A stretch of DNA of 51,682 bases. Origin: Eubacterium sp. GTDB lineage: Bacteria; Bacillota; Clostridia; Lachnospirales; Lachnospiraceae. Positions 22,384 to 45,566 of this stretch are shown here, piece by piece (the first letter of the stretch is position 1; the number at the start of each line of letters is the position of its first letter). Under the pieces are notes generated by a model. That model made no database searches and was not told the origin of the DNA. It saw only the letters and a program-made list of their open reading frames with translations. The DNA lies in contig JAFUVQ010000048.1 in the NCBI GenBank assembly GCA_017477505.1, positions 1 through 51,682 of the forward strand. The letters run 5' to 3'. The position numbers and the translations under genes are program-made.

Positions 22384-24015
22384 TTAGTCCCTACGGAATA
22401 AATCTCTTGTATAAACCTTCTCTTCCACATCATCCAGCACGCTGTCATAGCGGTTGGCGATGATGCAGTTACATTGTTTCTTAAACTTATCAAGATCATT
22501 TACGATAGCCGACCCGAAGAAGGTGCTGCCATCTTCGAGTGTCGGCTCATATATTATAACCGTTGCGCCCTTGGCCTTAACTCTCTTCATTACGCCCTGA
22601 ATTGAGCTCTGACGGAAATTATCGGAATTGGACTTCATAGTGAGGCGGTAGATGCCTATCGTTACATTTTTCTCCTTGCTTCTATCGAAACTGTTGTTGC
22701 TGTAGCTGTAGGCACCGGCAATATCGAGAACACGGTCTGCTATAAAATCCTTACGGGTACGATTGCTCTCAACGATAGCGGTCATCATATTCTGAGGAAC
22801 GTCGTTATAGTTTGCGAGAAGCTGCTTCGTATCCTTCGGGAGGCAGTAACCGCCGTAACCGAATGAAGGATTGTTGTAATAATCGCCGACTCTCGGATCG
22901 AGGCACACGCCTTTGATGATGGCGGCCGTGTCAAGTCCTTTGACTTCGGCATATGTATCAAGCTCATTAAAATATGAAACACGAAGAGCGAGATAAGTAT
23001 TTACGAAAAGCTTGGTAGCCTCGGCTTCCGTATAACCCACGAAAAGGGTTTCGATATCCTCCTTGATAGCACCCTGGCGGAGCATTTCCGCAAAAATCCT
23101 TGCTTTCTTCTCAGTCTTCTCGTCGCAGCCCACGATTATACGGCTGGGATAGAGATTATCATAAAGGGCCTTGGATTCACGCAGGAATTCAGGACTGAAA
23201 ATGATATTATCAGCCTTGTAACGTGCCCTGATCTGCCTGGTGTAACCAACAGGAATGGTGGATTTGATTATGATAGTCGGCTTACTCCTTCTGGATTTTG
23301 TAGCCTTTTGAACTGTTTCGATAACAGTCTCAACTGCGGAGCAGTCGAAGAAATTCTTGCTCGGATCGTAATTTGTAGGAGCTGCGATGATTATAAAATC
23401 CGCATTCTTATATGCACTTTCACCATCCATCGTAGCCTTAAGATTAAGTACTCTTTCACCGCTCTTCGCCTCGGCAAGATACTTCTCAATATAGTCATCC
23501 TGGATCGGAGAAATGTAATTGTTCAGCTTCTCAACCTTCTCTGGAATTATGTCAACTGCTGTAACTTCGTTATGCTGCGAGAGAAGCACTGCCAGAGAAA
23601 GACCTACATAACCTGTTCCCGCAACTGCAACCTTATAACCCTCTTTTGGAAGTTTGATTCGGGAGTTGGATGCGTGGGATGCGTCAGGTGAGTTGGATTC
23701 GCTTGCTGTGTGGGATGTGCTTGCTGCGCCGGATGTGTTTGCTGCGCCGGATGTGCTTCCTATGCCGGATGCGCTTCCTGTGTCGGATGTGCTTCCTTCA
23801 TTACATGCGGCAAGCAGTTCTGCAGGCGCAATATTCAGTGCATCTGAGAGAAGCCCAAGCTGCTCGAGAGACGGAGTCTGTTCATTTGTCTCGATCTTAC
23901 TGAGAATAGACCTGTTAATGCCTGTCTTCTGTGACAGTTCAAGCTGTGTAAAACCTGCATCTTTGCGGGCTTTTTTTATAGTTTCGGACAATTTACCAAG
24001 ATTGATACTATTCAT
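22384..24015 (-). CDS. ugd: Xre DNA-binding domain fused to UDP-glucose 6-dehydrogenase
   Basis: 543 residues in three parts. Residues 6-70 form a Cro/CI helix-turn-helix ([40 protein letters not shown]). Residues 72-118 are a Ser/Thr/Gly/Ala-rich linker. Residues 125-543 are a full nucleotide-sugar dehydrogenase: NAD site [17 protein letters not shown], catalytic Cys391 in [14 protein letters not shown], and the C-terminal UDP-binding domain. It oxidises UDP-glucose to UDP-glucuronate with NAD. Dehydrogenases of this family normally start at the Rossmann fold. The single open frame has no sign of frameshift. The fusion suggests an enzyme that also binds DNA, perhaps its own promoter. Confidence 0.88.
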
Positions 24016-24165: not shown

Positions 24166-24199
24166 TAAAAAATCTGCCACACCAATAACGGCATGGCAG
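24166..24199 (-). terminator. Intrinsic terminator after the Hsp70-GrpE gene
   Basis: On the minus strand CTGCCA and TGGCAG close a stem with further TGCC/GGTG pairs, followed directly by a run of six T. It separates the wecB/Hsp70-GrpE transcript from the ugd gene downstream. Confidence 0.75.
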
Positions 24200-24230: not shown

Positions 24231-25778
24231 TCAGTTGGCTACAACGACTGAGGCCGTGCGAAGCACCTTGCCCTTATATACGTAACCCGACTGCATTACA
24301 TCCTTAACGGTATTAGGAGGAAGGTCTTCGTCGTCCACGTGCATTACGGCAGTCTGATAATTGTAATCATATTCCTTGCCTATGCCGGTGATGACCTGCA
24401 CATCATTTTCCTCTAATATTTTTATAGCCTTTTCATATGTCCTTATGATTCCCTGCAGATACGGATTCTGTGATGCGCCGGATGACGATGTGCCGCCTGA
24501 CGTGCCGGTTGATGAAGTACTGCCTGATGCGCCGGCTGCGCTATCTGACGCGCCGGCTGTGCTGTCTGATCCGCCGGCTGTGCTGTCTGATCCGCCGGCT
24601 GCACTACTCGAAACTGCACCATATGTGCCGCCTGCATACTTGATCGCATACTCCAGGTCATCTATTACCGGGATCAGCCTGGTGATGAAGTCGGAAATGC
24701 TCTCAGGCTTTACTTCCTCAGCCTCATGCAGTGTCATGTAGTCGATCAGTTTGAAGCGCGCTTCCCTGCCGGACATCACATTATTTATCTCAAATATAAT
24801 TCTTCTGTCTTCATCAGCCTTGAAGGTAAACTCGCAGGCCTTCTGATAGAAGAATTCCATTTCCTCTTTCGGGATCGTGATACGGCAGGACTTAACGAAA
24901 TCCACGCCTCTCTTCTCATATATGATTATCTCATCATAAGGCCTGGATGATTCCGGATAGTTCTCTACCTCCAATCGGGCCTCGCAGGGGATGAGAGTAT
25001 TCATTTCCATGATGGAATACATTTTTCCGTTGACCGAAACAAAGACATCGTAAGGTGTGAGGGTTGCCTCTTCGTGAATTCCCTGAAAAGCCTCGCGTCC
25101 CTCAATGCGTCCGCAGATATAGCCTATGCCCTCGATGACGCACTGATCGTCCAATACCTTGAGTCGAATGTCCTTCGAAGCGTAATTCTCCATGGCAAGA
25201 TTGAAATCCATACATTTGTCAGAAGCGCCCGAAACCAGCATGAAACGGGCATCCGACAGGTCGAAGAAACGCTTGCAGGAATTCGTAAGAAAGTCAGAAC
25301 GTTTAAGCGAAGAGCCGCTCCAGCGCTCAGCCACGAAGGTATCCTCGGCCACAACAGCATTTTCCCCAAGATAATACTGGGCAACCGCCAGTTTTGCAGG
25401 TGATGCAAAGGCCATCATCGCCGGCCCCGTTACATCGAAAGAAACATACGCATAATAAGCCATCGCCATGGTCTCGGTAACGGTCCGGATAATGTCGACG
25501 CCGCAGTCAGCGGCACATTTGTATAAAAGCTGAGTCTCCTTCAGGCCGGTATCGTCGGATACGGCGACCACGAGAGAATAATCGCGCAGGTTCATATGCT
25601 CTTTTACAAATGTATCGATGGTCTTCAGCGCTGTCCTTATGGACGAATCCGCTGCGACAATATTCAGCCTCTTTATATCACCGGGAAGCGGCACTTCAGC
25701 TACACTTACAGAATCAACATTCGCGATGCAGAGTCTGGCCTGCCTTTCCCAAAAATGCACTCCTATAACCGGTTTCAT
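24231..25778 (-). CDS. Hsp70-like protein fused to GrpE
   Basis: 515 residues from ATG 25778 (AGGAGAAGG upstream). Residues 1-240 look like a degenerate Hsp70 ATPase (VIGVHFWERQARLCIANVDS, then ADCGVDIIRTVTETMAMAYY in the place of DnaK's RIINEPTAAA). Residues 240-300 resemble the Hsp70 substrate-binding sandwich (YDVFVSVNGKMYSIMEMNTL, IPCEA). Residues 360-385 (FITRLIPVIDDLEYAIK) are a GrpE helix, and 438-515 are the GrpE head (LEENDVQVITGIGKEYDYNY, DEDLPPNTVKDVMQSGYVYK, LRTASVVV). A 50-residue Ser/Gly/Ala/Thr linker splits the GrpE part. Classical Hsp70 phosphate loops are not evident, so ATPase activity is doubtful. Its start overlaps the wecB stop by 4 bases (ATGA), so the two are translationally coupled. 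Confidence 0.78.
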   Translation of the reverse strand: MKPVIGVHFWERQARLCIANVDSVSVAEVPLPGDIKRLNIVAADSSIRTALKTIDTFVKEHMNLRDYSLVVAVSDDTGLKETQLLYKCAADCGVDIIRTVTETMAMAYYAYVSFDVTGPAMMAFASPAKLAVAQYYLGENAVVAEDTFVAERWSGSSLKRSDFLTNSCKRFFDLSDARFMLVSGASDKCMDFNLAMENYASKDIRLKVLDDQCVIEGIGYICGRIEGREAFQGIHEEATLTPYDVFVSVNGKMYSIMEMNTLIPCEARLEVENYPESSRPYDEIIIYEKRGVDFVKSCRITIPKEEMEFFYQKACEFTFKADEDRRIIFEINNVMSGREARFKLIDYMTLHEAEEVKPESISDFITRLIPVIDDLEYAIKYAGGTYGAVSSSAAGGSDSTAGGSDSTAGASDSAAGASGSTSSTGTSGGTSSSGASQNPYLQGIIRTYEKAIKILEENDVQVITGIGKEYDYNYQTAVMHVDDEDLPPNTVKDVMQSGYVYKGKVLRTASVVVAN

Positions 25779-26923
25779 AATCCTTCTCCTCTCATTTTGG
25801 GATATTGGGGAGTGTCCCCGTTGTCCCATTTTCCTTCAAGTATGTCGGCTATTCGCTCACATGCGTGGCCGTCTCCGTATGGATTGCAGGCGTGTGACAT
25901 TTTCTCATATTCGCCGCTGTCCTCTAAGAGCAGCTTGAAGGTTTTATAGATTGTTTCTTCGTTTGTTCCGACCAGTTTCAGGGTTCCGGCTTCTACGCCT
26001 TCGGGGCGTTCAGTGGTATCCCGCATGACCAGTACCGGGACGCCGTAGGACGGGCATTCTTCCTGTATTCCGCCGGAATCTGTGAGGCAGAGGTAGGACC
26101 TGGCCTCGAAATTGTGGCAGTCGAAGACTTCTATCGGTTCGATGATGTGAATCCTGTCACAGCCACCGAGCTCCTGCTCTGCAGCCTCACGGACCACCGG
26201 GTTCATATGGATGGGATAGACCGCCTTGCAGTCCGGATGCTCATCCAGCACGCGGCGGATGGCACGGAACATTTGATGCATAGGTTCCCCAAGATTCTCG
26301 CGGCGATGCGCGGTTATGAATATCAGCTTATCATCCCCGACCCATTCAAGTTCGGGATGTGTATAATCCTCGCGTACTGTGTGCTGCATGGCATCGATCA
26401 CGGTATTTCCCGTCACATAAATGGTCGAAGGGTCCTTGCCTTCTCTCAGAAGATTATCTCTGCTCCATGCTGTAGGCGCAAAATTATATCTGGAAATGAG
26501 CCCTACAGCCTCTCTGTTAAACTCTTCCGGATAAGGACTGTAAATATTGTAGGTTCTGAGTCCCGCTTCAACATGCCCAACAGGAATCTGCATATAGAAA
26601 CACGCCAGAGCAGTTACAAATGTAGTGCTGGTGTCTCCGTGCACCAGAACCACATCCGGCTTTTCCTTCTCCAGAATCTCCCTGATCCCGTTCAGAATAT
26701 TTGTCGTAATATCAAACAGCGTCTGCCTGTCCTTCATGATATTCAGATCATAATCCGGCACCACGCCAAAGGTTTCCAGAACCTGATCAAGCATCTGCCT
26801 GTGCTGGGCCGTCACGCAGACTTTGACCTGAAGTCCGGGTCTCTTCTTCATTTCATTTACAAGAGGACACATTTTAATCGCTTCCGGCCTTGTGCCGAAA
26901 ACCGTCATTATCTTTTTACTCAT
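25775..26923 (-). CDS. wecB: UDP-N-acetylglucosamine 2-epimerase (non-hydrolysing)
   Basis: 382 residues, the normal length. The family start MTVFGTRPEAIKMCPLVNEM is followed by VLVHGDTSTTFVTALACFY, PVGHVEAGLRT, PYPEEFNREAVGLIS, and the UDP-binding end LTDSGGIQEECPSYGVPVLV. It interconverts UDP-GlcNAc and UDP-ManNAc in the cytoplasm for surface polysaccharide. Its stop codon overlaps the start of the Hsp70-GrpE gene. Upstream lie a hairpin repeat and the two glycosylphosphotransferase genes of the same strand. Confidence 0.93.
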   Translation of the reverse strand: MSKKIMTVFGTRPEAIKMCPLVNEMKKRPGLQVKVCVTAQHRQMLDQVLETFGVVPDYDLNIMKDRQTLFDITTNILNGIREILEKEKPDVVLVHGDTSTTFVTALACFYMQIPVGHVEAGLRTYNIYSPYPEEFNREAVGLISRYNFAPTAWSRDNLLREGKDPSTIYVTGNTVIDAMQHTVREDYTHPELEWVGDDKLIFITAHRRENLGEPMHQMFRAIRRVLDEHPDCKAVYPIHMNPVVREAAEQELGGCDRIHIIEPIEVFDCHNFEARSYLCLTDSGGIQEECPSYGVPVLVMRDTTERPEGVEAGTLKLVGTNEETIYKTFKLLLEDSGEYEKMSHACNPYGDGHACERIADILEGKWDNGDTPQYPKMRGEGL

Positions 26924-29932: not shown

Positions 29933-30010
29933 GAATGTATGCAGATTCTGTGCGAAAGCATGTTCAATTGAGTGGGAGCGTGCCATATGGTGCCTGCCAC
30001 TTTGCCATCC

Positions 30011-30108
30011 GGTGCCTGTCACTTAACAGTTTGTTCATATTTGGCGCCTAGTGTCTGCGCGGTTCCTGCCCGCCCCGGTGCCTGTCACTTAACAGTTTGT
30101 TCATATTT
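30011..30108 (+). repeat. REP-like element, copies 1 and 2 (head GTGCCTGTCAC)
   Basis: Two units of head GTGCCTGTCAC plus tail TTAACAGTTTGTTCATATTT at 30011-30042 and 30077-30108, 66 bases apart, with a third degenerate head (GTGCCTGCCAC) near 29989. Copy 2's tail overlaps the stop codon of the diguanylate cyclase gene. Confidence 0.85.
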
Positions 30109-31186
30109 ACTCGCGGTATTTTTTATTGCCAGGTTTCTGGTAATACTCTTTTTTATTTGCATACATCATTGCATCTGATTCTTTAAGCATGTCGTCTATG
30201 TTTTTGGGTCCATTAGGCCTGAAGCTGTATCCAATAGCACAGCTATACGAGGTCTTGGAAACTCTGTTCTGTATTCGGTCGATGAGCTGCGTAACGTCTT
30301 CCATTGTTTTACGTCTGCAGACAATGACAAATTCATCGCCGCCCAGCCTGTAAACCATTTCATTTGTTTCTGAAGCCTGTGTAAAGCAAAACGCAAGTGT
30401 CTCCAGCGCCGTATCCCCGGCGGCATGCCCCTCCGAATCATTTATAGCTTTTAACCCATTCATATCTATGGTCACTACGGCGTTTATTTCCTTTGGATCT
30501 TTGCTGACCGATGCGTAAAATGACTGCCTGTTCAAAAGCCCGGTGAGTGCGTCCTTTTCTGTCATTTGCAAAATTGAGAAAACGTAATAGACGAAGACAG
30601 CTATGGTGATGGTCACGCAGAAAATCTGCGAATAATCTTTTCCAAGTATAAACGGCAGAATCAACCCCGATAAAAATGCAAAGCAGAGGAAAACAATCGG
30701 GAATATCTCTGTATATTGTTTGTTGCTCCGCTTGAACAGCATGTAAACCAGCAGCGCCGAGTATCCGCCCACTGTTATATACGGCAGATAGCCCAGCAGC
30801 CCGCGCTGAAGCGTGCCATTACTGTCAAGTGCGAAAATGATTCCGGTAAAAATAGAAATGATATCCAGGGCCGCCAGCGTAATGGCCGGTATAAAAATAA
30901 ACCAGCGCACATTTTTGGCAAGTGTATAAATGATAAATGCAATGATAAATGGCGTCGTGCTATATCGGATAGCCATGAGAACAAACCTGACATCGACAGC
31001 ATCACCCGTATCAGCCAGATAAAACTCCGAAAACACAACCATAGAAAAAACAAACATTCCAATAATCAGAACATACATGCGGAGAATCGTCTTATTATCC
31101 AAAAATACAGTTGTTTTAAGCAGGACTGCAAAAGCAAGCAAGACCAAAACATTTGCCCAGTTTTGCACGATCAATTCCTTAATCAT
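30107..31186 (-). CDS. Membrane diguanylate cyclase (GGDEF)
   Basis: About 359 residues from ATG 31186 with AAGGA upstream. Six or seven membrane helices cover residues 8-210, followed directly by a GGDEF domain (DALTGLLNRQSFYA, ITIDMNGLKAINDSEGHAAG, YRLGGDEFVIVCRR). The active motif GGDEF is intact, so it should make cyclic di-GMP from GTP. The membrane part resembles a 7TM sensor. I do not see an allosteric RxxD just before the motif. Its TAA stop is formed where the tail of a REP copy begins, so the repeat abuts the coding end. It may control the neighbouring polysaccharide genes. Confidence 0.88.
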   Translation of the reverse strand: MIKELIVQNWANVLVLLAFAVLLKTTVFLDNKTILRMYVLIIGMFVFSMVVFSEFYLADTGDAVDVRFVLMAIRYSTTPFIIAFIIYTLAKNVRWFIFIPAITLAALDIISIFTGIIFALDSNGTLQRGLLGYLPYITVGGYSALLVYMLFKRSNKQYTEIFPIVFLCFAFLSGLILPFILGKDYSQIFCVTITIAVFVYYVFSILQMTEKDALTGLLNRQSFYASVSKDPKEINAVVTIDMNGLKAINDSEGHAAGDTALETLAFCFTQASETNEMVYRLGGDEFVIVCRRKTMEDVTQLIDRIQNRVSKTSYSCAIGYSFRPNGPKNIDDMLKESDAMMYANKKEYYQKPGNKKYRE

Positions 31187-31250
31187 TATCAATAATCCTT
31201 TCCTGATGCCTACCCTTGTTAATGTCTTTTTATGCCCGGTGCCCTATGCC

Positions 31251-31304
31251 CGGTGCCTGTCACTTTATGTCCGGTGCCTGTCACTTAACGGTTTGTTCAT
31301 ATTT
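31251..31304 (+). repeat. REP-like element, copy 3 with a partial tandem head
   Basis: A head CGGTGCCTGTCAC followed by TTTA (31251-31267), then a full unit at 31273-31304 with tail TTAACGGTTTGTTCATATTT. The full unit forms the 3' end of the VanZ-like gene. Confidence 0.8.
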
Positions 31305-31828
31305 ATCAGTTTGACAACTCCGAAATATATGAGTGCTCCGATAAATGCACCTAATGTATTTGTAATAAGATCGTCAATATCTGAACTGCGTCCAAATACG
31401 AAAAGTTGGGAAATTTCTATAAATAATGAAAGACCAAATCCTGCAAGTGTTGCCTTCCAGATACGGTCAATTTTCTTGAAGCAAAACGGCCAGGAAAAGC
31501 CGACGGGAATAAACATCGCAACATTTCCAAATACATTTCTCTGCCATCCGTCGTATATATCTGTGAGATGGACGAATGGGACCGGATTAACAGTATTTAC
31601 TATGTCTTTTGAATTATAAATGAACATTTTTTCAATATGTCCATCAACCAGATTCCACGGAAAATAAACCAGTCGGGCTATAACCACCAAACACACATAA
31701 ACCGTAATCAGCTTGCATTCATGTTTCCAATCAATCTTTTTACGGACAGCTGCGCATGTCACTCGAACAAGGACAAAACATATTGTGATAAATATCACAA
31801 GCATACAATAAGAAATAAAAAAACCCAT
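31265..31828 (-). CDS. VanZ-like membrane protein with a repeat-derived C-terminus
   Basis: 187 residues. It has four or five membrane helices and the VanZ core GNVAMFIPVGFSWPFCFKKI, then GFGLSLFIEISQLFVFGRSS and DIDDLITNTLGAFIGALIYF. VanZ proteins give low-level teicoplanin resistance in one case; most are of unknown role. The last residues (MNKPLSDRHRT) are translated from the REP element at 31273-31304, so the native stop has been replaced. Starts at ATG 31828. Alone on its transcript as far as seen. Confidence 0.8.
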   Translation of the reverse strand: MGFFISYCMLVIFITICFVLVRVTCAAVRKKIDWKHECKLITVYVCLVVIARLVYFPWNLVDGHIEKMFIYNSKDIVNTVNPVPFVHLTDIYDGWQRNVFGNVAMFIPVGFSWPFCFKKIDRIWKATLAGFGLSLFIEISQLFVFGRSSDIDDLITNTLGAFIGALIYFGVVKLINMNKPLSDRHRT

Positions 31829-31867
31829 TTGAAATAACTCCTAGATCCAACCGGTGACTATCCAATC

Positions 31868-31899
31868 GGTGACAGGCACTTAATAGTTTGTTCATATTT
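31868..31899 (+). repeat. REP-like element, copy 4 (head GTGACAGGCAC)
   Basis: Head GTGACAGGCAC plus tail TTAATAGTTTGTTCATATTT. It lies just after the RAYT transposase gene, before its terminator is reached from the other side, and with copy 5 flanks that gene. Confidence 0.85.
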
Positions 31900-31948
31900 G
31901 ATTATACTACCCTAGATAAGTTATGCACAAGCAAATACTATGCTCTGC

Positions 31949-31983
31949 AAAAAAAAGCGAAGATCTTATCTTCAGACCTTCGC
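31949..31983 (-). terminator. Intrinsic terminator of the RAYT gene
   Basis: On the minus strand GCGAAG and CTTCGC with inner TCT/AGA pairs form the stem, followed by eight T. It lies 24 bases after the transposase stop codon. Confidence 0.85.
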
Positions 31984-32006
31984 CTCTTTTCATTTTATTT
32001 AATTAT

Positions 32007-32654
32007 TTAATTTCCGGGCAACCACATGCTATCCTCTTTCATGTCTTTTTGTATTCGAAGTTCTTTTTCCGCATGTAGTATTCTGTCCTCCACAAACTCT
32101 TTGTACTTCTCTCGTGGATTTCCTTTGAAATATGACAATGTACGTGATGTATCTACAAGCCCCGATATGAGTTGACGGGCAGACGAACGAAATTCATTTA
32201 TACTTGCCCCCATTTTTTTAACGAACTCCTGATAACTTGAATACTCATACTCAAGGGCATCACTCACCATATGCGCTCTGACCGGATTGAGATGTATGTA
32301 CCTTGTAACTTCCAAAAAATAGCTGTCATCCTCGATCAGACATGATGTATATCTGTCTTCAAACAAATGACCGGAATAATTATATTTTCGATTGAATCTT
32401 ACAGCATACCTGTGAAGTATCCACTGCATTATCTTCCACAATTCCCTGTCACCGGTCTCGATTGCCATATGAAAATGATTTGTCATTAGACAAAGTGCAT
32501 GTATTTTGAAATGAAATATTCTGCTTGCCTTTTTGACGATTTCCAAAAATGTCAGGAAGTCATCTCTGTCCTTATAAAGTGTCAATTTTCTGTTTCCACG
32601 GCTCATAACATGATAGATAGCACCCGGATACCATTTCCTGCTTGGCCTCGACAA
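32007..32654 (-). mobile_element. REP-associated tyrosine transposase (RAYT, Y1/IS200-like)
   Basis: 215 residues; start TTG at 32654 with AAGGTG upstream. It has the TnpA-REP layout: N-terminal YPGAIYHVMSRGNRKLTLYK, the metal-binding HUH motif in LMTNHFHMAIET, and the presumed nucleophile Tyr in EVTRYIHLNPVRAHM. These enzymes cut and move single-stranded REP hairpins rather than ordinary insertion sequences. The gene has its own terminator, has no IS-type ends, and lies between copies 4 and 5 of the repeat, which is scattered only over 29.9-45.7 kb here. It appears intact. Confidence 0.88.
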
Positions 32655-32852
32655 TAAATCACCTTCCTATTCTTTTTTACTAATGAAGGCGCTGAAGTTG
32701 TAGCGGCGACCATTTCACGTTTCAACACAGTAATTACTGTCACAATAACCACCACCGCGGTAATGAACATGGTAGAAGATACGATGGTGGCACATAGGTT
32801 CGCTGGGACGGACATCACTGGGCTTGGTGACCTTGCTTGGTGACCTCGGCTT

Positions 32853-32882
32853 GGTGACAGGCACTTTACAGTTTGTTCATAA
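32853..32882 (+). repeat. REP-like element, copy 5 (head GTGACAGGCAC)
   Basis: Head GTGACAGGCAC plus TTTACAGTTTGTTCATAA, preceded by two short TTGGTGACC pieces at 32824-32846. It lies about 200 bases upstream of the RAYT start. Confidence 0.8.
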
Positions 32883-33005
32883 TAAATGGTCTCAACAACC
32901 GCTTATTCCTCAGATAAACTCCTCCTTCTTTTGATTCAGATAATTTACTAACGCGGCCGACGTTGTAGAAAGCATAGCACCACTGTCATTTCTTTGTAAA
33001 CAACA

Positions 33006-33045
33006 AAAATGCTAGTAGTTGTTGCGCTACAACTACTAGCATTTT
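33006..33045. terminator. Perfect 17-base palindrome, bidirectional terminator-like
   Basis: AAAATGCTAGTAGTTGT pairs perfectly with ACAACTACTAGCATTTT around a 6-base loop. T-runs at both ends allow termination in both directions. It separates the RAYT promoter side from the aldo/keto reductase gene. Confidence 0.65.
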
Positions 33046-33258
33046 ATTAAAAAGCGACGTATTTAAGCCATTTTTTAGACTTTTCCAGGTAGGTGACATA
33101 ATTCTGATTTACATAACACTGTAGTTTTGGTTTACATAAGTTTAACTTTTGTGCATCTTGTATATTTATTTTTGTTAAAAAGTACCAAGCTAGTAGTTGT
33201 AGCACTCATTGTCTCAGCGGTTATTTGCAAACATGCTGTGGCGACTGCTGACTTCCGC

Positions 33259-33286
33259 GGTGACAGGCACTTAACAGTTTGTTCAT
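33259..33286 (+). repeat. REP-like element, copy 6 (head GTGACAGGCAC)
   Basis: Head GTGACAGGCAC plus TTAACAGTTTGTTCATAG. It begins 7 bases beyond the aldo/keto reductase stop codon. Confidence 0.85.
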
Positions 33287-33292
33287 AGCTGG

Positions 33293-34222
33293 CTATGGAA
33301 GGAATTTGCCGGATGCAAGATAGAGTCTGTACCAATCTTTATGTGTAAGAGTGACTTCGGCAGCTGCGCAGGCATCCTTGATGTGTTCCGGATTCATTGT
33401 TCCGATTATTGCCTGCATTTTTGCGGGATGACGCAATATCCATGCGATCGCTATTGCCGCTTTGGATACATTTTCACGTTCTGCAAGTTCGCCGAGCACT
33501 TTATTCAGCTCAGGGAAATCGGGATTATCTATAAATGTTCCGCCGAACATTCCCACCTGCAACGGTGACCATGTCTGTATGGTAATATCATTCAGGCGAC
33601 AGTAATCGAGCGCGCTTCCATCCCGATTTATGGAAAAATCCGTCGTTTTATTGTTCATATAAAGTGCCTGATCGATAAGCTGCGATTGTTCAAGCGACAG
33701 CTGCAATTGGTTGAATACCAAAGGCTGTTTCACGTACTTTTTCAGCAATTCAAGCTGCATAGGCATGAGGTTGCTGACGCCAAAGTAGCGGACCTTCCCC
33801 TCATTTTCCATTTTATCAAACGCCTCGGCCACTTCCTCAGGATCAAACAGAAGGTCCGGCCTATGCAAAAGCAGCACATCAAGGTAATCGACGTTCAGCC
33901 TTCTGAGGCTGTCGTCAACGCTTGAAATGATATTTTCCTTCGTCCAGTCAAACTCACCCCTCTCAGGGCAGATTCCGCATTTACTTTGTATATAAATGTC
34001 TTCTCTCTTGATTCCGGTGAGCGGAAAACTCTCGCCGAAACGTGTCTCCGCAGCGCCATTTGCCCCATAGCAGGTAGCGTGGTCAAAGAAATTAATGCCA
34101 CAATCAAATGCAGTTCTTATTGCCGTAGCCGCCGACTCCTTTGACAGATCAGGCATTCTCATACAGCCCTGGATCATGACAGAAACATTCGCCGGACCAT
34201 TTACAACATTGATATTTTTCAT
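33293..34222 (-). CDS. Aldo/keto reductase (YdhF-like)
   Basis: About 309 residues from the Met of MKNINVVNGPANVSV; the frame is open further upstream to 34300 only because it reads through a REP element (MNKPLSACH). Catalytic residues are in place: Asp and Tyr in NFFDHATCYG, Lys in IYIQSKCG, His in VLLLHRPD, and the NADPH-binding RHPAKMQAIIGTMNPEHI near the end. It reduces aldehydes or ketones with NADPH in the cytosol; the natural substrate is unknown. REP copies lie directly at both ends of the gene. Confidence 0.87.
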   Translation of the reverse strand: MKNINVVNGPANVSVMIQGCMRMPDLSKESAATAIRTAFDCGINFFDHATCYGANGAAETRFGESFPLTGIKREDIYIQSKCGICPERGEFDWTKENIISSVDDSLRRLNVDYLDVLLLHRPDLLFDPEEVAEAFDKMENEGKVRYFGVSNLMPMQLELLKKYVKQPLVFNQLQLSLEQSQLIDQALYMNNKTTDFSINRDGSALDYCRLNDITIQTWSPLQVGMFGGTFIDNPDFPELNKVLGELAERENVSKAAIAIAWILRHPAKMQAIIGTMNPEHIKDACAAAEVTLTHKDWYRLYLASGKFLP

Positions 34223-34272
34223 GATAACCCTCTTATCATCAATTAAAAGCATTCGCCGGGTGACAACTGCCA

Positions 34273-34366
34273 GGTGACAGGCACTTAATGGTTTGTTCAT
34301 ATTTTTTGTGCGATTTCCTGCGGCTTGCGAGGCGAGTGGTGACAGGCACTTAACAGTTTGTTCATT
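34273..34366 (+). repeat. REP-like element, copies 7 and 8 (both head GTGACAGGCAC)
   Basis: Units at 34273-34304 (tail TTAATGGTTTGTTCATATTT) and 34338-34366 (tail TTAACAGTTTGTTCAT), 65 bases apart. Copy 8 touches the stop codon of the zinc-ribbon gene at 34365. Confidence 0.85.
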
Positions 34367-36596
34367 ATTCGCCGAATTCTTTCAGGCCTTCGGAGACTTC
34401 GTATTTGTAGGTTTCGCGGTTGGCTGTGACGACTTCGTCGTACATTTTCTTTCCGTCGACATAACCTCTTGTTGAATACCAGCTGTCGTCGATGTCGGAG
34501 TTTCCGACGATTCCTTTTGATGCTGAAATCATGTATTCATCTCCGGGCAGCTGTACTATTCCGTCGTATTTCACCGGATAGTATACCGGTGTCGGATCGA
34601 AATCGCCGTCCTCATGGGTGATCACTGCCGTGAATACGAGTATGTACGAATTATTTGCTTCGAAATCTGTTCCGAGGTTTTTGGCTACAAGCAGGTAATC
34701 GCCCTTAAATGTAAGCTCTCCTACCGATACTTCGTCATCGTAGTTTGAAGCTGTGTAGCTCTTTATTCTGTCTATCGCGTCCGCCTTCAGAGTCTCTTTG
34801 TATGTATCGGAAATGTCGGCCAGCGATGTAATATCTGTGTACTCAGAATACAACTCGAATCCATCGCCACATTCTATATCATAATTCTCTCTGTTTGCCT
34901 CGGCTATATCTATATAGCAGTTAAATGGATTTGTGTAGCCTTTGGTACCATAGCTTCCGTCCACATGTGAACTGCCGATTATGCCGACGGCCTCGTCGTA
35001 ATTCACCCCATTTTCATTTTTAAGAATATCATTAAACTGTACAGGGAAATAAACCGTTCCGGCGGCAAATCTGCCTTCGGTACTTGAAACTGTTCCCTTG
35101 TAAATGACAGACAGTGCATTGTAAATGTACCCATTTCCATCATCTTTACGCATTATGTAAACATAACCGGCGTACTCAAGATTGCTCACAGAGGCCCCAT
35201 CATCATTTGCAAAATTTGCATAAATGGTATCTTCGGCGTCGCTCTTGGCGGTGGATATAAATGAATCGGGGAGATCCGCGAAGCTTGTGACATATTCGTC
35301 AAGGCCGCTTACTTCGTAATCCTTCTCAGTTTCTGCTGGAATCTTGCCGATTCTGTCAGCGTAAACAGACATGTCATCGCTCGGAATGGTAACCGTGATC
35401 GTGTCGCCGTTGGAAAGCCCGTTCATCGTATCACATTTGAAATCATAGGAACTCATTTCTGTTCCGTTGTAGTTGAAACTCACGTATCCGTCAGGCGAAG
35501 TTCCTTCAAATTTAACTTCAAGATCTGCAAATGCATCGAAGGTACTCACCTGTGCAAGGCCATCAACCTTATAATCCTTATCTTTGTATTTTAATCTTGC
35601 TTTTACGTACTTTTTATAACTATCATCGTCAACAGTCCAGACATATTTTATCTTGTCACCATTTGAAAGATTCTCGGATTTCTCAAGCTCTACGGACACA
35701 GCGTCGCGGATGAGCAAAAGCGGCGGAGTGATTTTGTACATAAGCCCCATCTGCTTCTTGCCCAAACGGGTATATTTGAGCTTCTTTCCGTACTTTTTGT
35801 CAACGGCATCCCAATCCACATAAACCTTGGCTTTGCCGTATCCCTCGTATCCCTCAACCTCGACAACGACAAATTTATTGAGATTGATGGTCCTGCTGGC
35901 ATTGAACGCGGCAATGCATCCGATACAGAGTAAAATGAACAGCACGGCTGCGCCGACGATTCCACCGATAAGATACTTCTTCGGAATAGGTTGATTTGCA
36001 TTCGGCTGGGTTGCGGCCGGTCGGGGTGCGTTAGGCTGGGTTGCGTTCGGTCGGGGCGCGTTAGGCTGGGTTGCGTTCGGCACGGATGATTGCTGTGGTT
36101 GCCTGTTGGCCCCGGTTTCCAGATTTTGTGCCGGATGAAATGCATTTGATTGTGACTGATTTGTAGCTGGCTGGGTTGCAGCTGGCTGGGTTGCAGCTGG
36201 CTGGGTTGAAGTTGATTGATTTGCATCTGATTGATCTCTGCCCGGCTGAGTTGCGGCTGACTGTGCAGGTGTTGTCTGCTCCGCTGCAGATTGCTGGTAA
36301 TACCCGTCAGTTGACTGATTATCATAACTCTGCTGGTAGTAACCGTCATATGACTGATCATAATACTGCTGATAATAACCATCAGCCGCCTGGTTATCAT
36401 AACCCTGCTGATAGTATCCATCACCTGCCTGATTATCATAGCCCTGCTGATAGTATCCATCAGTTGACTGACCCGCGTCCGCCTGAGAATTATCATTTAC
36501 AGAATCAGAACTACCGGTAGATATCAATTTAAAACCACAAAACCTGCAAAACTTAGCACCATCCGCATTTTGTTTACCACAACTAGCGCAAAACAT
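34365..36596 (-). CDS. Zinc-ribbon membrane protein with YYQQ repeats
   Basis: About 743 residues from ATG 36596 with AAGGAGG upstream. Order: a zinc ribbon (MFCASCGKQNADGAKFCRFC), five tandem repeats of about 15 residues with the core DGYYQQGYDNQ (residues 33-105), a long Ala/Thr/Gln/Pro/Asn-rich stretch (to about 195), one membrane helix (YLIGGIVGAAVLFILLCIGC), then about 500 residues outside. The outer part has two related beta domains (NLSNGDKIKYVW, GLSNGDTITVTI) and two alpha/beta repeats near the end (ASVSNLEYAGYVYI, DEVSVGELTFKGDYLLV). The Gln/Tyr-rich cytosolic repeats are prion-like in composition. Function unknown; possibly a sensor or envelope protein. A REP copy begins at its stop codon. 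Confidence 0.75.
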   Translation of the reverse strand: MFCASCGKQNADGAKFCRFCGFKLISTGSSDSVNDNSQADAGQSTDGYYQQGYDNQAGDGYYQQGYDNQAADGYYQQYYDQSYDGYYQQSYDNQSTDGYYQQSAAEQTTPAQSAATQPGRDQSDANQSTSTQPAATQPAATQPATNQSQSNAFHPAQNLETGANRQPQQSSVPNATQPNAPRPNATQPNAPRPAATQPNANQPIPKKYLIGGIVGAAVLFILLCIGCIAAFNASRTINLNKFVVVEVEGYEGYGKAKVYVDWDAVDKKYGKKLKYTRLGKKQMGLMYKITPPLLLIRDAVSVELEKSENLSNGDKIKYVWTVDDDSYKKYVKARLKYKDKDYKVDGLAQVSTFDAFADLEVKFEGTSPDGYVSFNYNGTEMSSYDFKCDTMNGLSNGDTITVTIPSDDMSVYADRIGKIPAETEKDYEVSGLDEYVTSFADLPDSFISTAKSDAEDTIYANFANDDGASVSNLEYAGYVYIMRKDDGNGYIYNALSVIYKGTVSSTEGRFAAGTVYFPVQFNDILKNENGVNYDEAVGIIGSSHVDGSYGTKGYTNPFNCYIDIAEANRENYDIECGDGFELYSEYTDITSLADISDTYKETLKADAIDRIKSYTASNYDDEVSVGELTFKGDYLLVAKNLGTDFEANNSYILVFTAVITHEDGDFDPTPVYYPVKYDGIVQLPGDEYMISASKGIVGNSDIDDSWYSTRGYVDGKKMYDEVVTANRETYKYEVSEGLKEFGE

Positions 36597-36648
36597 ATTC
36601 GCATCCTCCTTATGCCACAATTCATGAAGTAATTATATCTCTGATTTC

Positions 36649-36744
36649 GGTGCCTGTCACTTAATAATTTGTTCATAGTTAGGGTAAGGTTTTGGGCGGG
36701 GTTTTGACGAAATGGTGACAGGCACTTAACAGTTTGTTCATTTT
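36649..36744 (+). repeat. REP-like element, copies 9 and 10 as an inverted-head pair
   Basis: 36649-36678 has head GTGCCTGTCAC, and 36714-36744 has head GTGACAGGCAC; the tails keep the same direction. The heads are reverse complements, so the pair can fold into a hairpin of about 11 base pairs. Copy 10 supplies the TGA stop of the dihydrouridine synthase gene. Confidence 0.88.
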
Positions 36745-37859
36745 TGGAGGGCAAGTTGGGCGGCGGTTTTGTAGTCTGCGAGGCGGGTTGCTTTATGTAT
36801 GGCTTTCAGTTTCTTTTTGTCAAGGTGGAGGCCTTGTGACAGATATGTCCAGTGTTCTTTCATTTTCATGACTACTTGTCTTTCGTTGGCCATCTCTTCT
36901 TCGTAGGCCTCGGTCAGTTCTTTGAGGAAGGCTTTGAGCCTGATTCTGTCGGGGTCGGGGTCCGGGCCGGGCATGTGCGCAAGGTTGAGTGGGTGTTCGG
37001 GGTCCGGGCCGGGCATGTGTGCAAGGCTGCCGGGACTATCTGAATCCAGGTTCGGCGCTGGCTTTCGGGTGCCTGTATTTTCGTGTGTTGGGGTTGATGT
37101 GAGATTGTGTTTCAGGTTGCCGGGGAGCTCGGGATTCATGATGACTCCGCGGCCCAGCATGACGGCGGTGCATTTTTCGTTTGATGTCAAGGTTTCGTTT
37201 CCGATTCCGATCATTTTTTTGTAAAATGTATCGCAATCGGTAATGTCTCCGTTATAACAGAGTTTTATCTTTTTGCCGAGTACTTCGGCGGCTCTTCTGT
37301 ATGCATCCAGCCTTACTTCTCCGGCATAAAAATCGCTGCGAAGTCTGGGATGGATGATCAGTTCTGATATCGGGAACTTCCTGTAGATTTCAAGTATGTC
37401 GTCCCATTCGGATTCGAACTCCATGCCTATTCTCGTTTTGATGGATATCTTTATTCCGTCGGTTCTGTCCCCGGGTCTTTTGTAACCGCTGATTCTGTTA
37501 TAGATATCGTACAGAAATCGCTCGAGTTCGTCCGGTCTGTCGAGGAAGCCTGCTCCGCGGCCTTTTGAGACTACTGTTCCGGAAGGACAGCCGAGATTGA
37601 GGTTCACTTCGTCATATCCGAGATCTACCAGCTGGCGGGTTATGGTCAGGAACAGATCTGAGTCGTTTGTCAGTATCTGCGGCACCAGGTTCAGCCCGAC
37701 ATTATTCTCGGGGTTTACATCTCTAAGCTCACGCCCTTTGAGATGGCTTGCTGTTAGAAATGGTGTGAAGTATTTGTCTATCCCGCCGTAATGTTTATCC
37801 AAGATTGTTCTATATACATATGTAGTTATTCCCTCCAGGGGTGCCAAATATAATTCCAC
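36738..37859 (-). CDS. dus: tRNA-dihydrouridine synthase with a low-complexity insert
   Basis: 373 residues. The FMN-barrel start is clear (LYLAPLEGITTYVYRTILDK) and the catalytic Cys lies in VNLNLGCPSGTVVSKGRGAG; the FMN phosphate site includes ELIIHPRLRSDFYAG and AVMLGRGVIMNPELPG. It reduces uridines in tRNA D-loops using NADPH. Between the barrel and the C-terminal helical RNA-binding domain is a Pro/Asp-rich insert of about 58 residues (about 252-309) with two copies of LAHMPGPDP, not usual for the family. The stop TGA is made by the first bases of REP copy 10. The upstream region has a 45-base tandem repeat. Confidence 0.88.
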   Translation of the reverse strand: MELYLAPLEGITTYVYRTILDKHYGGIDKYFTPFLTASHLKGRELRDVNPENNVGLNLVPQILTNDSDLFLTITRQLVDLGYDEVNLNLGCPSGTVVSKGRGAGFLDRPDELERFLYDIYNRISGYKRPGDRTDGIKISIKTRIGMEFESEWDDILEIYRKFPISELIIHPRLRSDFYAGEVRLDAYRRAAEVLGKKIKLCYNGDITDCDTFYKKMIGIGNETLTSNEKCTAVMLGRGVIMNPELPGNLKHNLTSTPTHENTGTRKPAPNLDSDSPGSLAHMPGPDPEHPLNLAHMPGPDPDPDRIRLKAFLKELTEAYEEEMANERQVVMKMKEHWTYLSQGLHLDKKKLKAIHKATRLADYKTAAQLALQK

Positions 37860-37914
37860 TCTTGTTCTCCCTACTTTACACTTGATTTATTTCTTGATGG
37901 TACCTACTGTAGAC

Positions 37915-38190
37915 CTCTCTTTTTCTATCTTTCAAATGCAGGGCTCCTTGCTGCGAGCCCTCTCTTTTTCCATCTTCCAATGCAGAGTTTCCTGCCGTGG
38001 CTCCTCTCTTTTTCTATCTTTCCAATGCGGGGCTTCCTGCCGTGAGCCCTCTCTTTTTCTATCTTTCAAATGTGGGGCTTCCTGCCGTGGCCCCTCTCTT
38101 TTTCTATCTTTCCAATGCAGCGCTTCCTACTGTGGTTCTTCTCTTTTTCTATCTTTCCAATGCAGAGCTTCCTGCTGTGGCCCCTCTCAC
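37915..38190. repeat. 45-base tandem repeat (about six copies) in the 446-base gap 37860-38305
   Basis: Units of 44-45 bases begin at 37915, 37960, 38004, 38049, 38094, about 38139 and 38184, each with CTCTCTTTTTCTATCTTTC then an AATGCAG and CTTCCTGCCGTGG part. Because 45 is a multiple of three, plus-strand frames stay open, but they lack a ribosome site and encode only a Ser/Phe/Cys repeat. On the minus strand it would form the untranslated leader of the dihydrouridine synthase gene. The rest of the gap holds the terminator at 38264. Confidence 0.75.
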
Positions 38191-38263
38191 TCTAATCTCT
38201 ATTCATTCCAGTCTGACGCCCCAGCTGCGCCGCTCCTCATTTATCTAACCAAGTCCCAGTATA

Positions 38264-38295
38264 AAGGGCACCCCGCTAAGGGCGCCCTTCATTTT
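38264..38295. terminator. Terminator after the peroxiredoxin gene
   Basis: AAAGGGCACCCC pairs with GGGCGCCCTT (one wobble) around a short loop. On the plus strand it is followed by CATTTTT, and on the minus strand by TTTAT. It lies 11 bases beyond the peroxiredoxin stop. Confidence 0.6.
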
Positions 38296-38305
38296 TAATA
38301 ATCTT

Positions 38306-38980
38306 TCAGCTGTCTTTTTTTGCTGTGAGGTACCACTCGTAAGGAATGATTTCCTCGCCTTTATCTCTTATCCTCTCAGCAGCGTCTTCGAGGGTAAGGG
38401 GCGAGCCCATGAGCACATCGTCTCCAGGCTGCCAGTCTGCCGGCGTGTTGACGTTCTCGGCATCATGCTTCTGAAGCGAAAGCACCACTCTCTTTATCTC
38501 ATCGATATTTCTGCCTGTGGACATAGGATAATATAATATCGCCCTCACTATAGATTCGGGATCGATAATGAACACGGCTCTTACGGTCTGGGTTGATGCG
38601 ACCGCCTGGAGCATGCCGTACATTTTCGCAACATTCATGCTGATATCAGCAACAATTGGAAATGGAACGATTACTTTTCCCTCTCCCTTCCAGTCTATCT
38701 GCTCTATATTTTTTGCCCATGCAAGATGCGAATGTAATGAGTCGATGGAAAGACCGAGCAGGTCTGTATTCATTTCCTTAAATTCTTCATATCTTTTGGA
38801 CAATGCTATGAACTCAGTTGTACATACAGGGGTAAAATCGGCCGGGTGTGAGAAAAATACTACCCAGCGCCCTTTGTAGTCTTCAGGAAAATTGATCTTT
38901 CCTTTTGTCGTGATACTTCTGAATGAAGGAGCTTTCTCTCCTATGGTAGGCATTACTGTCACTGCTTCAACATTTTCCAT
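38306..38980 (-). CDS. Peroxiredoxin (Prx6-like, AhpC/TSA superfamily)
   Basis: 224 residues. The peroxidatic Cys lies in HPADFTPVCTTEFIALSKRY, with the Arg-containing FIIDPESIVRAILYYPMSTG segment and the long C-terminal extension (ADWQPGDDVLMGSPLTLEDA) of Prx6-type enzymes. It reduces peroxides using a thiol donor. It lies 12 bases downstream of the superoxide reductase gene, so the pair would turn superoxide into peroxide and then water. Start at 38980 has AAGGAGAAGG upstream. Confidence 0.92.
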   Translation of the reverse strand: MENVEAVTVMPTIGEKAPSFRSITTKGKINFPEDYKGRWVVFFSHPADFTPVCTTEFIALSKRYEEFKEMNTDLLGLSIDSLHSHLAWAKNIEQIDWKGEGKVIVPFPIVADISMNVAKMYGMLQAVASTQTVRAVFIIDPESIVRAILYYPMSTGRNIDEIKRVVLSLQKHDAENVNTPADWQPGDDVLMGSPLTLEDAAERIRDKGEEIIPYEWYLTAKKDS

Positions 38981-38992
38981 TTGCCTTCTCCT

Positions 38993-39361
38993 TTAAGCTT
39001 TCCAAAGACCGTGAAGATTGCAATATGCATATACAGCAACAACCGAATCATCATCTGTTAATTCGAATTCAGCAACAGGCTTGTCACCAGGATTGAGGTT
39101 CTTCCTCTGAGCGCCCTTAGCTGTCTCAACAACGATCCATTCGATATAATGAGCCTCTAACATTGGATGCTCAACAGATCCGACTGTAACTGTAACCTTG
39201 TTTCCATCAACAGTATATACAGGTACATGCTTCTCAGCAGCGCCATCGGATGTACCCGGAATAAGCTCTGTCATATTCTGTCCGCAGCAGGACATAGGAG
39301 CACCTGATTCTTTGATCATTTCCACAAGATTGCCACACTTCTCACATACAAAAAATTTCAT
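38993..39361 (-). CDS. Superoxide reductase (desulfoferrodoxin type)
   Basis: 122 residues. The N-terminal desulforedoxin-like iron site is present (FFVCEKCGNLVEMI, MSCCGQNM), and so is the catalytic Fe(His4Cys) centre (EKHVPVY, SVEHPMLEAHYIEWIVVE, AYCNLHGLWKA). It reduces superoxide to peroxide without making oxygen, as strict anaerobes do. Good ribosome site GGAGGTGG before ATG 39361. First gene of a two-gene oxidative-stress unit with the peroxiredoxin; the CoA-disulfide reductase lies just upstream on the same strand. Confidence 0.94.
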   Translation of the reverse strand: MKFFVCEKCGNLVEMIKESGAPMSCCGQNMTELIPGTSDGAAEKHVPVYTVDGNKVTVTVGSVEHPMLEAHYIEWIVVETAKGAQRKNLNPGDKPVAEFELTDDDSVVAVYAYCNLHGLWKA

Positions 39362-39445
39362 ACTATGCCACCTCCAATTTTATTTTTTTATACTTTGCGT
39401 ACAACTCCATTTAACCATAGATGTGTCCACATTTCTATCATTTTT

Positions 39446-41140
39446 TTAATTCTTTTCAATACCGCATGGATAGGTCTCAATTGCAAGGCTCTTTTCGCGC
39501 ATCACTCCTGAGTAGAACATGTATCCACCGGACATATTACAGCAGTCAAATGAATGCTGAGCCAATATCCTGCAGGCTATATATCCCCGCATTCCGCTCT
39601 GGCAGGTCACATATACTTTTTTATCCTTATCCAGCTCATCGATTCTGTCCCTAAGCTCGTCAAGCGGTACATTTATATAACCTTCTATGTGCCCTTTCGC
39701 GTATTCATGAGCCGTCCGCACATCCAGCAATATGACGCTTCCGTCGCGCGGAAGAGCGGCGTCATCGTACCAATGATACTGCTTGAAAATGTTTTTTCTT
39801 ATGTTGTCTATCATAAATCCGGCCATATTCACAGGATCTTTCGCCGAAGAATACGGCGGGGCATACGCGAGATCCAGGCTTTGCAGTTTGTCTGCACTGA
39901 GGCCCGCATTTATGGCGACTGACAGAATATCCAGCCTCTTGTCCACGCCTTCGGAACCTATGATCTGGGCGCCAAGGAGTTTAAATGTATTTCTTTCGAA
40001 AACAACCTTCATTATCATGGTCTTCGAGCCCGGATAATAATCAGCATGGGAATGAGGGAACAGGGCCACGCTTTCATAATCCATTTTCAAGTCCCGCGCA
40101 GCCTTCTCCGTGAGTCCCGTTGCGGCAACTGTCATGTCAAATATCTTGATTATGGATGTCCCGAGGGAGCCCTGATAACGGCTGTCGCCGCCGCAAATGT
40201 TGTCCGCCGCTATGCGCCCTTGCTTGTTGGCGGGTCCGGCCAGGGCTATGGATGCATCCTGCTCCGACACGAAATGCTTAACCTGCACGGCATCGCCGAC
40301 CGCGTAGATATCGGGGACGGACGTCTCCATCCTGTCATTTACAACTATGCTGCCCCTGACACCGGTCGCGAGTCCGATCTTCGTGGCGAGAGAATTTTCG
40401 GGAATCACGCCTGCGGCCAGAATCACCATGTCAGAAGCAAGGGATGTAACGTCATCGAGCAGTGTGGCTATCGATTCATTTTCATTTTTAAAACCTACCA
40501 CGTTGCTGCTAAGTTTAAGTTCGATGCCCTTCGACCTCAACTTGCTGTGAACGAAAGTCGCCATGTCATAGTCAATGGTATTCATGAGCTGGTCGGGCTT
40601 CTGCACGATGGTCACCGCGAGGCCTCGCTCTTTAAGATTTTCGGCAACCTCGATTCCTATGTAACCGCCGCCGACTATGACCGCACTTTGCGGCGCATTT
40701 TTTTCAATAAAATCATGAATCTTAAATGTGTCCTCGACCGTCCTGAGTGTAAAAATCTTCTCGCTGTCAACGCCGGGAAGATCAGGTATAAATGGCTTTG
40801 CGCCCGGAGAAAGCAGGAGTTTGTCATATGACTCTTCAAAAACTTCGCCGGATGTAAGGTCGCGGACCTTAACGCGCTTCTCATTTGCATCAACATCAAT
40901 CACCTCGTGGCTGACCCTGACTTTGATCCTGAAGCGGGACCAGAGGCTCTCGGGCGTCTGCACCGTGAGGCGGGCCGGGTCGCCGATCACGTCGCCGATA
41001 TAATAAGGAAGCCCGCAGTTCGCGTAAGAAACATACTTCGATTTCTCGAAAATGACAATCTCCGCCGCCTCATTTAGTCTCCTGATGCGTGCCGCCGCCG
41101 ATGCGCCGCCGGCCACCCCGCCTACAATGATAACTTTCAT
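39446..41140 (-). CDS. CoA-disulfide reductase/NADH oxidase-like flavoprotein with C-terminal rhodanese domain
   Basis: 564 residues. The FAD site opens the protein (VIIVGGVAGGASAAARIRRL), with active Cys in YVSYANCGLPYYIGDVIG, a second NAD-binding motif (AVIVGGGYIGIEVAENLKER), and the dimerisation domain (NMAGFMIDNI). Residues about 465-555 are a rhodanese (ILLDVRTAHEYAKGHIEGYI, active loop VTCQSGMRGY with Cys). CoADR-RHD proteins reduce CoA disulfide or persulfides and polysulfides with NAD(P)H. In this context it supports thiol redox balance under oxygen or sulfur stress. It starts 17 bases after an unrecognised gene end. Confidence 0.92.
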   Translation of the reverse strand: MKVIIVGGVAGGASAAARIRRLNEAAEIVIFEKSKYVSYANCGLPYYIGDVIGDPARLTVQTPESLWSRFRIKVRVSHEVIDVDANEKRVKVRDLTSGEVFEESYDKLLLSPGAKPFIPDLPGVDSEKIFTLRTVEDTFKIHDFIEKNAPQSAVIVGGGYIGIEVAENLKERGLAVTIVQKPDQLMNTIDYDMATFVHSKLRSKGIELKLSSNVVGFKNENESIATLLDDVTSLASDMVILAAGVIPENSLATKIGLATGVRGSIVVNDRMETSVPDIYAVGDAVQVKHFVSEQDASIALAGPANKQGRIAADNICGGDSRYQGSLGTSIIKIFDMTVAATGLTEKAARDLKMDYESVALFPHSHADYYPGSKTMIMKVVFERNTFKLLGAQIIGSEGVDKRLDILSVAINAGLSADKLQSLDLAYAPPYSSAKDPVNMAGFMIDNIRKNIFKQYHWYDDAALPRDGSVILLDVRTAHEYAKGHIEGYINVPLDELRDRIDELDKDKKVYVTCQSGMRGYIACRILAQHSFDCCNMSGGYMFYSGVMREKSLAIETYPCGIEKN

Positions 41141-41157
41141 AATCTGTAACCTTTCTA

Positions 41158-41294
41158 CTACTTATTGAAATAGGAATCGATCAGCTCTCTCACCTTGAGA
41201 ATAATTTCCGAATAGTCGTCAAATGTACCGTTTTCGTAAGCCTTCTTTATTTTATAACATAAATACCCGGGGGACAAAGGAAAAGTTTCAGGAG
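41158..41294 (-). pseudogene. 3' remnant of an unrecognised gene cut off by a REP element
   Basis: A frame that stays open from the REP at 41299 to a TAG at 41158 reads in coding style: LSPGYLCYKIKKAYENGTFD, then DYSEIILKVRELIDSYFNK. No start with a ribosome site is seen; the upstream part of the frame is repeat DNA. It looks like the last 45 residues of a gene whose front was lost when the repeat pair settled here, although a short TTG-started peptide is possible. Confidence 0.4.
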
Positions 41295-41298
41295 AGCC

Positions 41299-41394
41299 GG
41301 TGCCTGTCACTTAATAGTTTGTTCATATTTAGTGTAGGCGGTAGGCGGGGTTACGCGGCAGCGGTGACAGGCACTTAATAGTTTGTTCATATTT
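41299..41394 (+). repeat. REP-like element, copies 11 and 12 as an inverted-head pair
   Basis: 41299-41330 (head GTGCCTGTCAC) and 41363-41394 (head GTGACAGGCAC), both with tail TTAATAGTTTGTTCATATTT. Both lie inside the 3' end of the large repeat-protein frame and encode its last residues. Confidence 0.88.
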
Positions 41395-45479: not shown

Positions 45480-45566
45480 AGCGGTACTCCTTTTCCAATA
45501 AAACACATAGGATTACAGCTACAATACTAACACGGAAACAGCAACAAAAGTGCAACACGGGGGACC

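Follow-up and report, generated by a model that had tools for sequence, protein, structure and literature searches.

The gene at positions 24231–25778 of the minus strand of the window (the whole stretch of 51,682 nucleotides analysed here) encodes a single-chain, lineage-specific protein, in which a reduced Hsp70 body is followed by a GrpE module that takes the place of the SBD-α lid; both this architecture and the existence of a family sharing it can be regarded as close to certain. The open frame (P0001, 515 residues) starts with an ATG at 25778, and its range includes the stop codon. The chain begins with a reduced Hsp70 nucleotide-binding domain (NBD; residues 1–235, 25074–25778, this and the following parts all lying on the minus strand), delineated with the structural model, its alignment to DnaK by VIA-align and a combined alignment. 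It continues with an SBD-β sandwich (residues 236–350, 24729–25073), delineated by a DnaK match that extends to residue 507 and by conservation; both boundaries are approximate. The first helix of the GrpE helix pair (residues 361–382, 24633–24698) is seen in the model and lies within a stretch matching the GrpE profile, and a Ser/Gly/Ala/Thr linker (residues 383–436, 24471–24632), marked by tandem repeats, composition and pLDDT, separates it from the second GrpE helix and the β-wing head (residues 437–515, 24234–24470), assigned by Pfam GrpE. A preliminary description, made from the DNA letters, had proposed that one chain combines an N-terminal part resembling Hsp70 with an Hsp70 β segment and a head of the GrpE type, and the fold match to DnaK, as well as the Pfam match to GrpE, bear this out.

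The reduced Hsp70 body

Residues 2–350 of the fusion match the Hsp70 fold, as found by a fold search with the model and by the VIA-align match to DnaK. Such a search of the N-terminal part had been put forward beforehand as a check, and its outcome left the Hsp70 reading standing. Fold comparison identifies both the NBD core and the SBD-β fold of Hsp70, so that the body consists of an SBD-β sandwich and an actin-like core from which subdomains IB and IIB are largely missing. None of the 26 aligned fusions, P0001 included, has a Pfam HSP70 (PF00012) match, and the N-terminal part of P0001 has no HSP70 match in either Pfam or NCBIfam. The Hsp70 identity of this part is nevertheless accepted, because the fold, the profile–profile comparison and the intermediates agree. 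In hhalign, the N-terminal part of the fusion aligns with the stand-alone mini-Hsp70s of the genus with a probability of 95.1, E of 3e-8 and a score of 65.9 (at most 20.6 in 20 shuffled controls), and the mini-Hsp70s align with DnaK and HscC-like proteins with a probability of 97.8 and E of 7.7e-13, the latter pair carrying no shuffle control. Five of seven mini-Hsp70s score above the Pfam HSP70 cut-off, one falls just below it (20.2 versus 20.6 bits) and one has no match, while a divergent second copy of the fusion (P0002) has a Pfam HSP70 match (8.2e-6) in its β segment.

The ATP site of Hsp70 comprises D8, the DLGTT motif, K70, the DLGGGT motif and E171. Both motifs are gone from the fusion and the glycine-rich motif is missing, the position of DnaK D8 is occupied by histidine in 26/26 fusions, and no lysine is found at the position of K70 in any of them. 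E102, the equivalent of E171, is kept in all 26. The mini-Hsp70s show the opposite pattern, with D8 kept in 7/7 and glycine replacing the equivalent of E171 in 7/7. Stretches 23–62, 198–233, 248–294 and 478–614 (numbering of L087, a DnaK of the genus) are among those missing from at least 24 of the 26 aligned fusions; on the subdomain map of Hsp70, they cover the lid and the larger part of both IB and IIB. According to the alignment and the model, the SBD-α lid is missing, and GrpE comes after SBD-β instead. The Hsp70 part had initially been called degenerate, in agreement with the loss of ATP-site motifs and large DnaK stretches from the combined alignment. Because it lacks the phosphate-binding motifs, the equivalent of K70 and the greater part of the IIB lobe, the fusion would be unable to run a DnaK-like ATP cycle, and a DnaK-like ATPase activity has very probably been lost. 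A nucleotide-independent role would fit the lost motifs, and it is conceivable that the invariant H8 and E102, which occupy the positions of DnaK D8 and E171 in what was once the nucleotide cleft, mark a repurposed ligand site.

The GrpE module and its linker

The sequence profile upholds the GrpE assignment of the C-terminal part, with Pfam GrpE (PF01025) matching residues 435–514 at E of 2.5e-26 (92.8 bits, against a cut-off of 25.8). All 26 aligned fusions match this profile over the helix pair and the β-wing. A second, weak stretch (E of 2.6e-4) places profile positions 29–84 over residues 330–386, before the linker. The model and the DnaK match put the module directly next to SBD-β, at the position of the lid. 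Canonical GrpE has an N-terminal stalk helix of about 70 residues, as stated in a passage of PMC12987570, and this long helix is reported as essential in an excerpt of PMC10803776. No long stalk is seen in the model, which has a single 22-residue helix (361–382) preceded by strands up to residue 343, yet the weak GrpE stretch reaches residue 330.

In the published complexes, as far as the same excerpt describes them, the GrpE head touches IB and IIB (contact region I), whereas the stalk touches IA and the SBD (PMC10803776). The wing of the second protomer is described in part of PMC11685456 as touching the Hsp70 lid through D171 and Y173 of GrpEL1, and passages of both sources describe a main-chain contact with Hsp70 made by P144/P172, which align with position 472 of the fusion. 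D471 and N473, aligned with D171 and Y173 of GrpEL1, are invariant in 26/26 fusions, despite the absence of a lid from the fusion itself. Canonical GrpEs retain D471 as well (36/38), and the retention of both residues may serve structure alone. A477, aligned with an IB-contacting residue, is kept in 26/26 fusions, and position 480 is histidine in 22/26. Position 472, a proline in 37/38 canonical GrpEs, is proline in 0/26 fusions, and the near-invariant canonical arginine at 377 and lysine or arginine at 497 are lost in 26/26. Among the 45 GrpE positions from residue 361 onwards at which no less than 90% of 38 canonical sequences agree, the fusion keeps 23, switches 7 and relaxes 15, and a further 17 positions are conserved in the fusion GrpE only. 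Judged by these alignments, the head has diverged from canonical GrpE.

The linker of 54 residues, placed in the loop between the two GrpE helices, is a minisatellite with a 21-bp unit repeated 4.0 times; its GC content is 0.64, compared to 0.49 for the fusion gene, and pLDDT is below 50 across residues 384–435 of the model. It was pointed out at the outset that a Ser/Gly/Ala/Thr linker interrupts the GrpE helix region; the linker is indeed present, but it is not a feature of this type of protein, being absent from the other 25 aligned relatives and seen in the genome of the window only. Linker minisatellites recur in the window, because a UDP-glucose/GDP-mannose dehydrogenase (22384–24015, minus strand) carries another one, a Ser/Gly/Ala-rich tandem-repeat linker with an 18-bp unit (23701–23794) that joins its N-terminal HTH_3 domain. 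Elsewhere in the window, strong tandem repeats are found at 42427–42894 (period 141, 3.3 copies) and 37914–38188 (period 45/90/135), and the region 29989–45704 contains 18 copies of GGTGCCTGTCAC with at most one mismatch (0.04 expected) around a gene at 32007–32654 that we take to resemble a REP-associated tyrosine transposase, with which these copies perhaps form a REP/RAYT set.

Distribution and constraint of the family

The profile of the N-terminal part finds the fusion at E below 1e-100 in 37 of 61 genomes of the same genus, including that of the window, the frames being uninterrupted by stops and 468 to 534 residues long. GrpE is present in the same frame in 37/37, detected in 26 by Pfam and in 11 by a profile built from the GrpE part; three more genomes, of 40 tallied, gave weak matches only, to mini-Hsp70s. 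Outside the genus this profile matched no genome, the single hits among 397 genomes of the family and 392 of the order being each time the window's own, in sets that are samples, with at most five candidates scored per genome, so that very distant relatives could escape. No match was found in the viral contigs searched, and the plasmids searched yielded one ordinary GrpE and no fusion. Six named public records hold relatives, assigned to Lachnospiraceae bacterium or Eubacterium sp. (including the YSB2008 lineage), one of them from sheep omasum. An Hsp70–GrpE fusion was not found in the literature by title or abstract, within a coverage that excludes most subscription journals.

The genome of the window also has an ordinary grpE–dnaK pair and a 564-residue Hsp70, labelled HscC-like from its length and similarity. 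Stand-alone mini-Hsp70s occur in 13 of the 61 genus genomes (profile E below 1e-100), six of which also have the fusion, and the union comprises 46/61; in the family, the mini-Hsp70 profile, the one that gives the 13 hits in the genus, found 0/397 at 1e-10, an empty result that would carry weight only if paired with a positive control. In two genomes, G003 and G030, a long acidic linker joins GrpE to an N-terminal half that is weakly related; such proteins are encoded at L039:212–2272 (686 residues) and L040:937–2961 (674 residues). The N-terminal halves of these variants (P0003 and P0004) match no Pfam family at E of 1e-5, and hhalign of the fusion family alignment against P0003 aligned GrpE alone. 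Their joint profile gives weak matches to mini-Hsp70s (7.4e-6 and 5.9e-4), which suggests that these halves are likely to be Hsp70-like. The divergent P0002 is encoded in G002, which has the ordinary copy as well (L038:2190–3761, minus strand). Two odd Hsp70 relatives of the genus, of 825 (L153:2509–4986) and 490 residues (L152:1804–3276, minus strand), align with the Hsp70 profile in its NBD part alone. Mini-Hsp70s, short-linker fusions and long-linker fusions are possible evolutionary steps, and because the genus holds them, it allows one to trace how a chaperone fusion arose.

In the GrpE tree, whose bootstrap is not settled, a long branch carries all 26 fusion heads as a single clade (97/86), separate from the 38 canonical GrpEs; P0002 is also on a long branch, and P0003 and P0004 lie beside the canonical set. 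As the heads are set apart in this way, no donor of the module is identified. Mean pairwise identity within the fusions is 0.734 for the wing, 0.601 for the helices, 0.420 for the NBD and 0.288 for SBD-β, making GrpE the best-kept part and SBD-β the least conserved one. The canonical wing of the genus is kept more tightly (0.849, n=7), and fusion and canonical wings share a mean identity of 0.472. Purifying selection acts on the fusion, with dN/dS of 0 to 0.11 in the 12 values, of 15 (five close pairs, three modules), that could be computed, several dS values being near saturation.

Possible mode of action and comparison with known systems

Canonical exchange in cis looks impossible, because contact region I consists of IB and IIB, and the fusion body has neither most of these subdomains nor a lid. 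We can propose instead that the fusion would dimerise through its GrpE helices and present two SBD-β modules. In the two least certain steps, SBD-β would hold client segments, and the head would engage a separate complete Hsp70 in trans, either DnaK or, less likely, the HscC-like protein. This engagement would promote release or hand-over of the client, with the fusion serving as a targeted exchange factor or adaptor that is itself bound to the client. A separate Hsp70, contacted via an altered interface, is preferred because the lid-contact positions and A477 are kept, but positions 472, 377 and 497 are changed. The whole explanation, from the architecture through the loss of ATPase to the dimer and the action in trans, is given a probability of roughly 0.4, and the trans mechanism taken by itself is held tentatively, at somewhat less than even odds. 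The departure of the head from canonical GrpE, which includes loss of the proline at 472, a documented DnaK contact, counts against it, as do the stalk missing from the model, a wing looser than that of canonical GrpE, and gene neighbours that hint at no partner; the low conservation of SBD-β does not appear to favour a tightly constrained client site.

The main rival to trans engagement is a self-contained scaffold, in which the GrpE module would only dimerise and cap or brace its own SBD-β as a lid, with no action on another Hsp70. The location of GrpE at the lid position and the missing stalk helix agree with this, and the 17 positions conserved in the fusion only, together with the 22 of 45 canonical positions that are switched or relaxed, suggest a new interface; still, invariant lid-contact residues in a protein with no lid, and a head that is the most conserved part, beyond what a mere dimeriser seems to need, leave such a role unlikely on balance. 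It is less probable again that the fusion is dedicated to the HscC-like Hsp70 rather than to DnaK. The presence of that protein beside DnaK in the window's genome, and the altered conserved set of the head, which could suit a different Hsp70, would be consistent with this, but an excerpt of PMC8215388 suggests that E. coli HscC does not interact with GrpE, and Hsp70s of similar size are found in same-genus genomes with no fusion (for example, G019 and G022).

Returning to trans engagement by the fusion, the gene neighbourhood points to no partner. In the window, the start codon overlaps in an ATGA the stop codon of wecB (UDP-GlcNAc 2-epimerase, 25775–26923, minus strand; Pfam PF02350, E of 5.4e-120), AGGAG, resembling a ribosome-binding site, lies 7 nt before the ATG (25786–25790, minus strand), and two sugar transferases are encoded upstream. 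A terminator-like hairpin of 11 pairs, six of them GC, is placed just 3' of the gene (24174–24199, minus strand) by a consensus scan, which is not evidence of function. The preliminary description had seen here translational coupling within a polysaccharide operon, and had considered that the protein may be a dedicated assembly or quality-control factor for sugar-transfer enzymes, or else a nucleotide-independent scaffold. The overlap itself is real, but context scored in 35 of the 37 loci (L043 and L217 left out) places wecB immediately upstream only in the window, one of 33 loci with an upstream gene, and the dedicated role is not supported, since upstream genes differ and the neighbourhoods of 10 relatives yielded, apart from the fusion itself, none of the window's genes. 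The most shared clusters within five genes are other than wecB, namely one in 18/35 loci (mixed positions, single linkage), three linked genes in 11 each, and another in 9; we presume the first to be ABC-transporter-like and the last TrmL-like. Hsp33 lies near the fusion in three loci (by Pfam for L037). These shared neighbours track subgroups of the genus. Operon logic was thus rejected as a functional clue, and quality control of the enzymes that transfer sugars in the wecB operon, for which the overlap and the two transferases would speak, is very improbable. A decaying or misassembled gene with no function, as lost motifs and a minisatellite grown within the gene might suggest, is scarcely credible given the stop-free frames in 37/61 genomes, the low computable dN/dS and the six public records.

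A conserved extra GrpE within an Hsp70 that is ATP-dead would give the exchange-factor system a new layout, and would offer a natural way of testing which parts of Hsp70 are required for holding clients without ATP; the fusion hints at an unrecognised kind of bacterial Hsp70 helper. One type of Hsp70 exchange factor, GrpE, is known in bacteria according to part of a 2015 review (PMC4753570), and two separate GrpE proteins in one bacterium, Myxococcus, are described in a passage of PMC10313047. We can speculate, although it is doubtful, that the fusion is an independently reached bacterial counterpart of Hsp110, with an ATP-dead client-binding Hsp70 body, GrpE for a lid, and the role of a second, client-targeted exchange factor for DnaK.

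Canonical DnaK and GrpE share with the fusion the fold of the NBD core and SBD-β, as well as the GrpE helix pair and β-wing, but they are two chains rather than one, and the fusion has lost most of IB and IIB, the ATP motifs and the lid, and shows no long GrpE stalk in the model. Ssz1 of the ribosome-associated complex pairs with a J-protein and, unlike the fusion, has no GrpE module, and the stand-alone mini-Hsp70s of the genus likewise differ in having no GrpE. Hsp110/Grp170 proteins are exchange factors for Hsp70 with an Hsp70 architecture themselves, made of an ATP-binding NBD, SBD-β and a helix bundle. Hsp110 (Sse1) works through its NBD together with the helix bundle and depends on the binding of ATP, as stated in part of PMC4753570, whereas the factor part of the fusion is GrpE and its NBD looks ATP-dead, with ATP motifs and lid absent. 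HscC-type Hsp70s resemble the fusion in that they, too, have deletions in NBD lobe I relative to DnaK, as described in an excerpt of PMC8215388. Unlike the fusion, the HscC type keeps the ATP motifs and a lid, the protein of the genus having about 564 residues.
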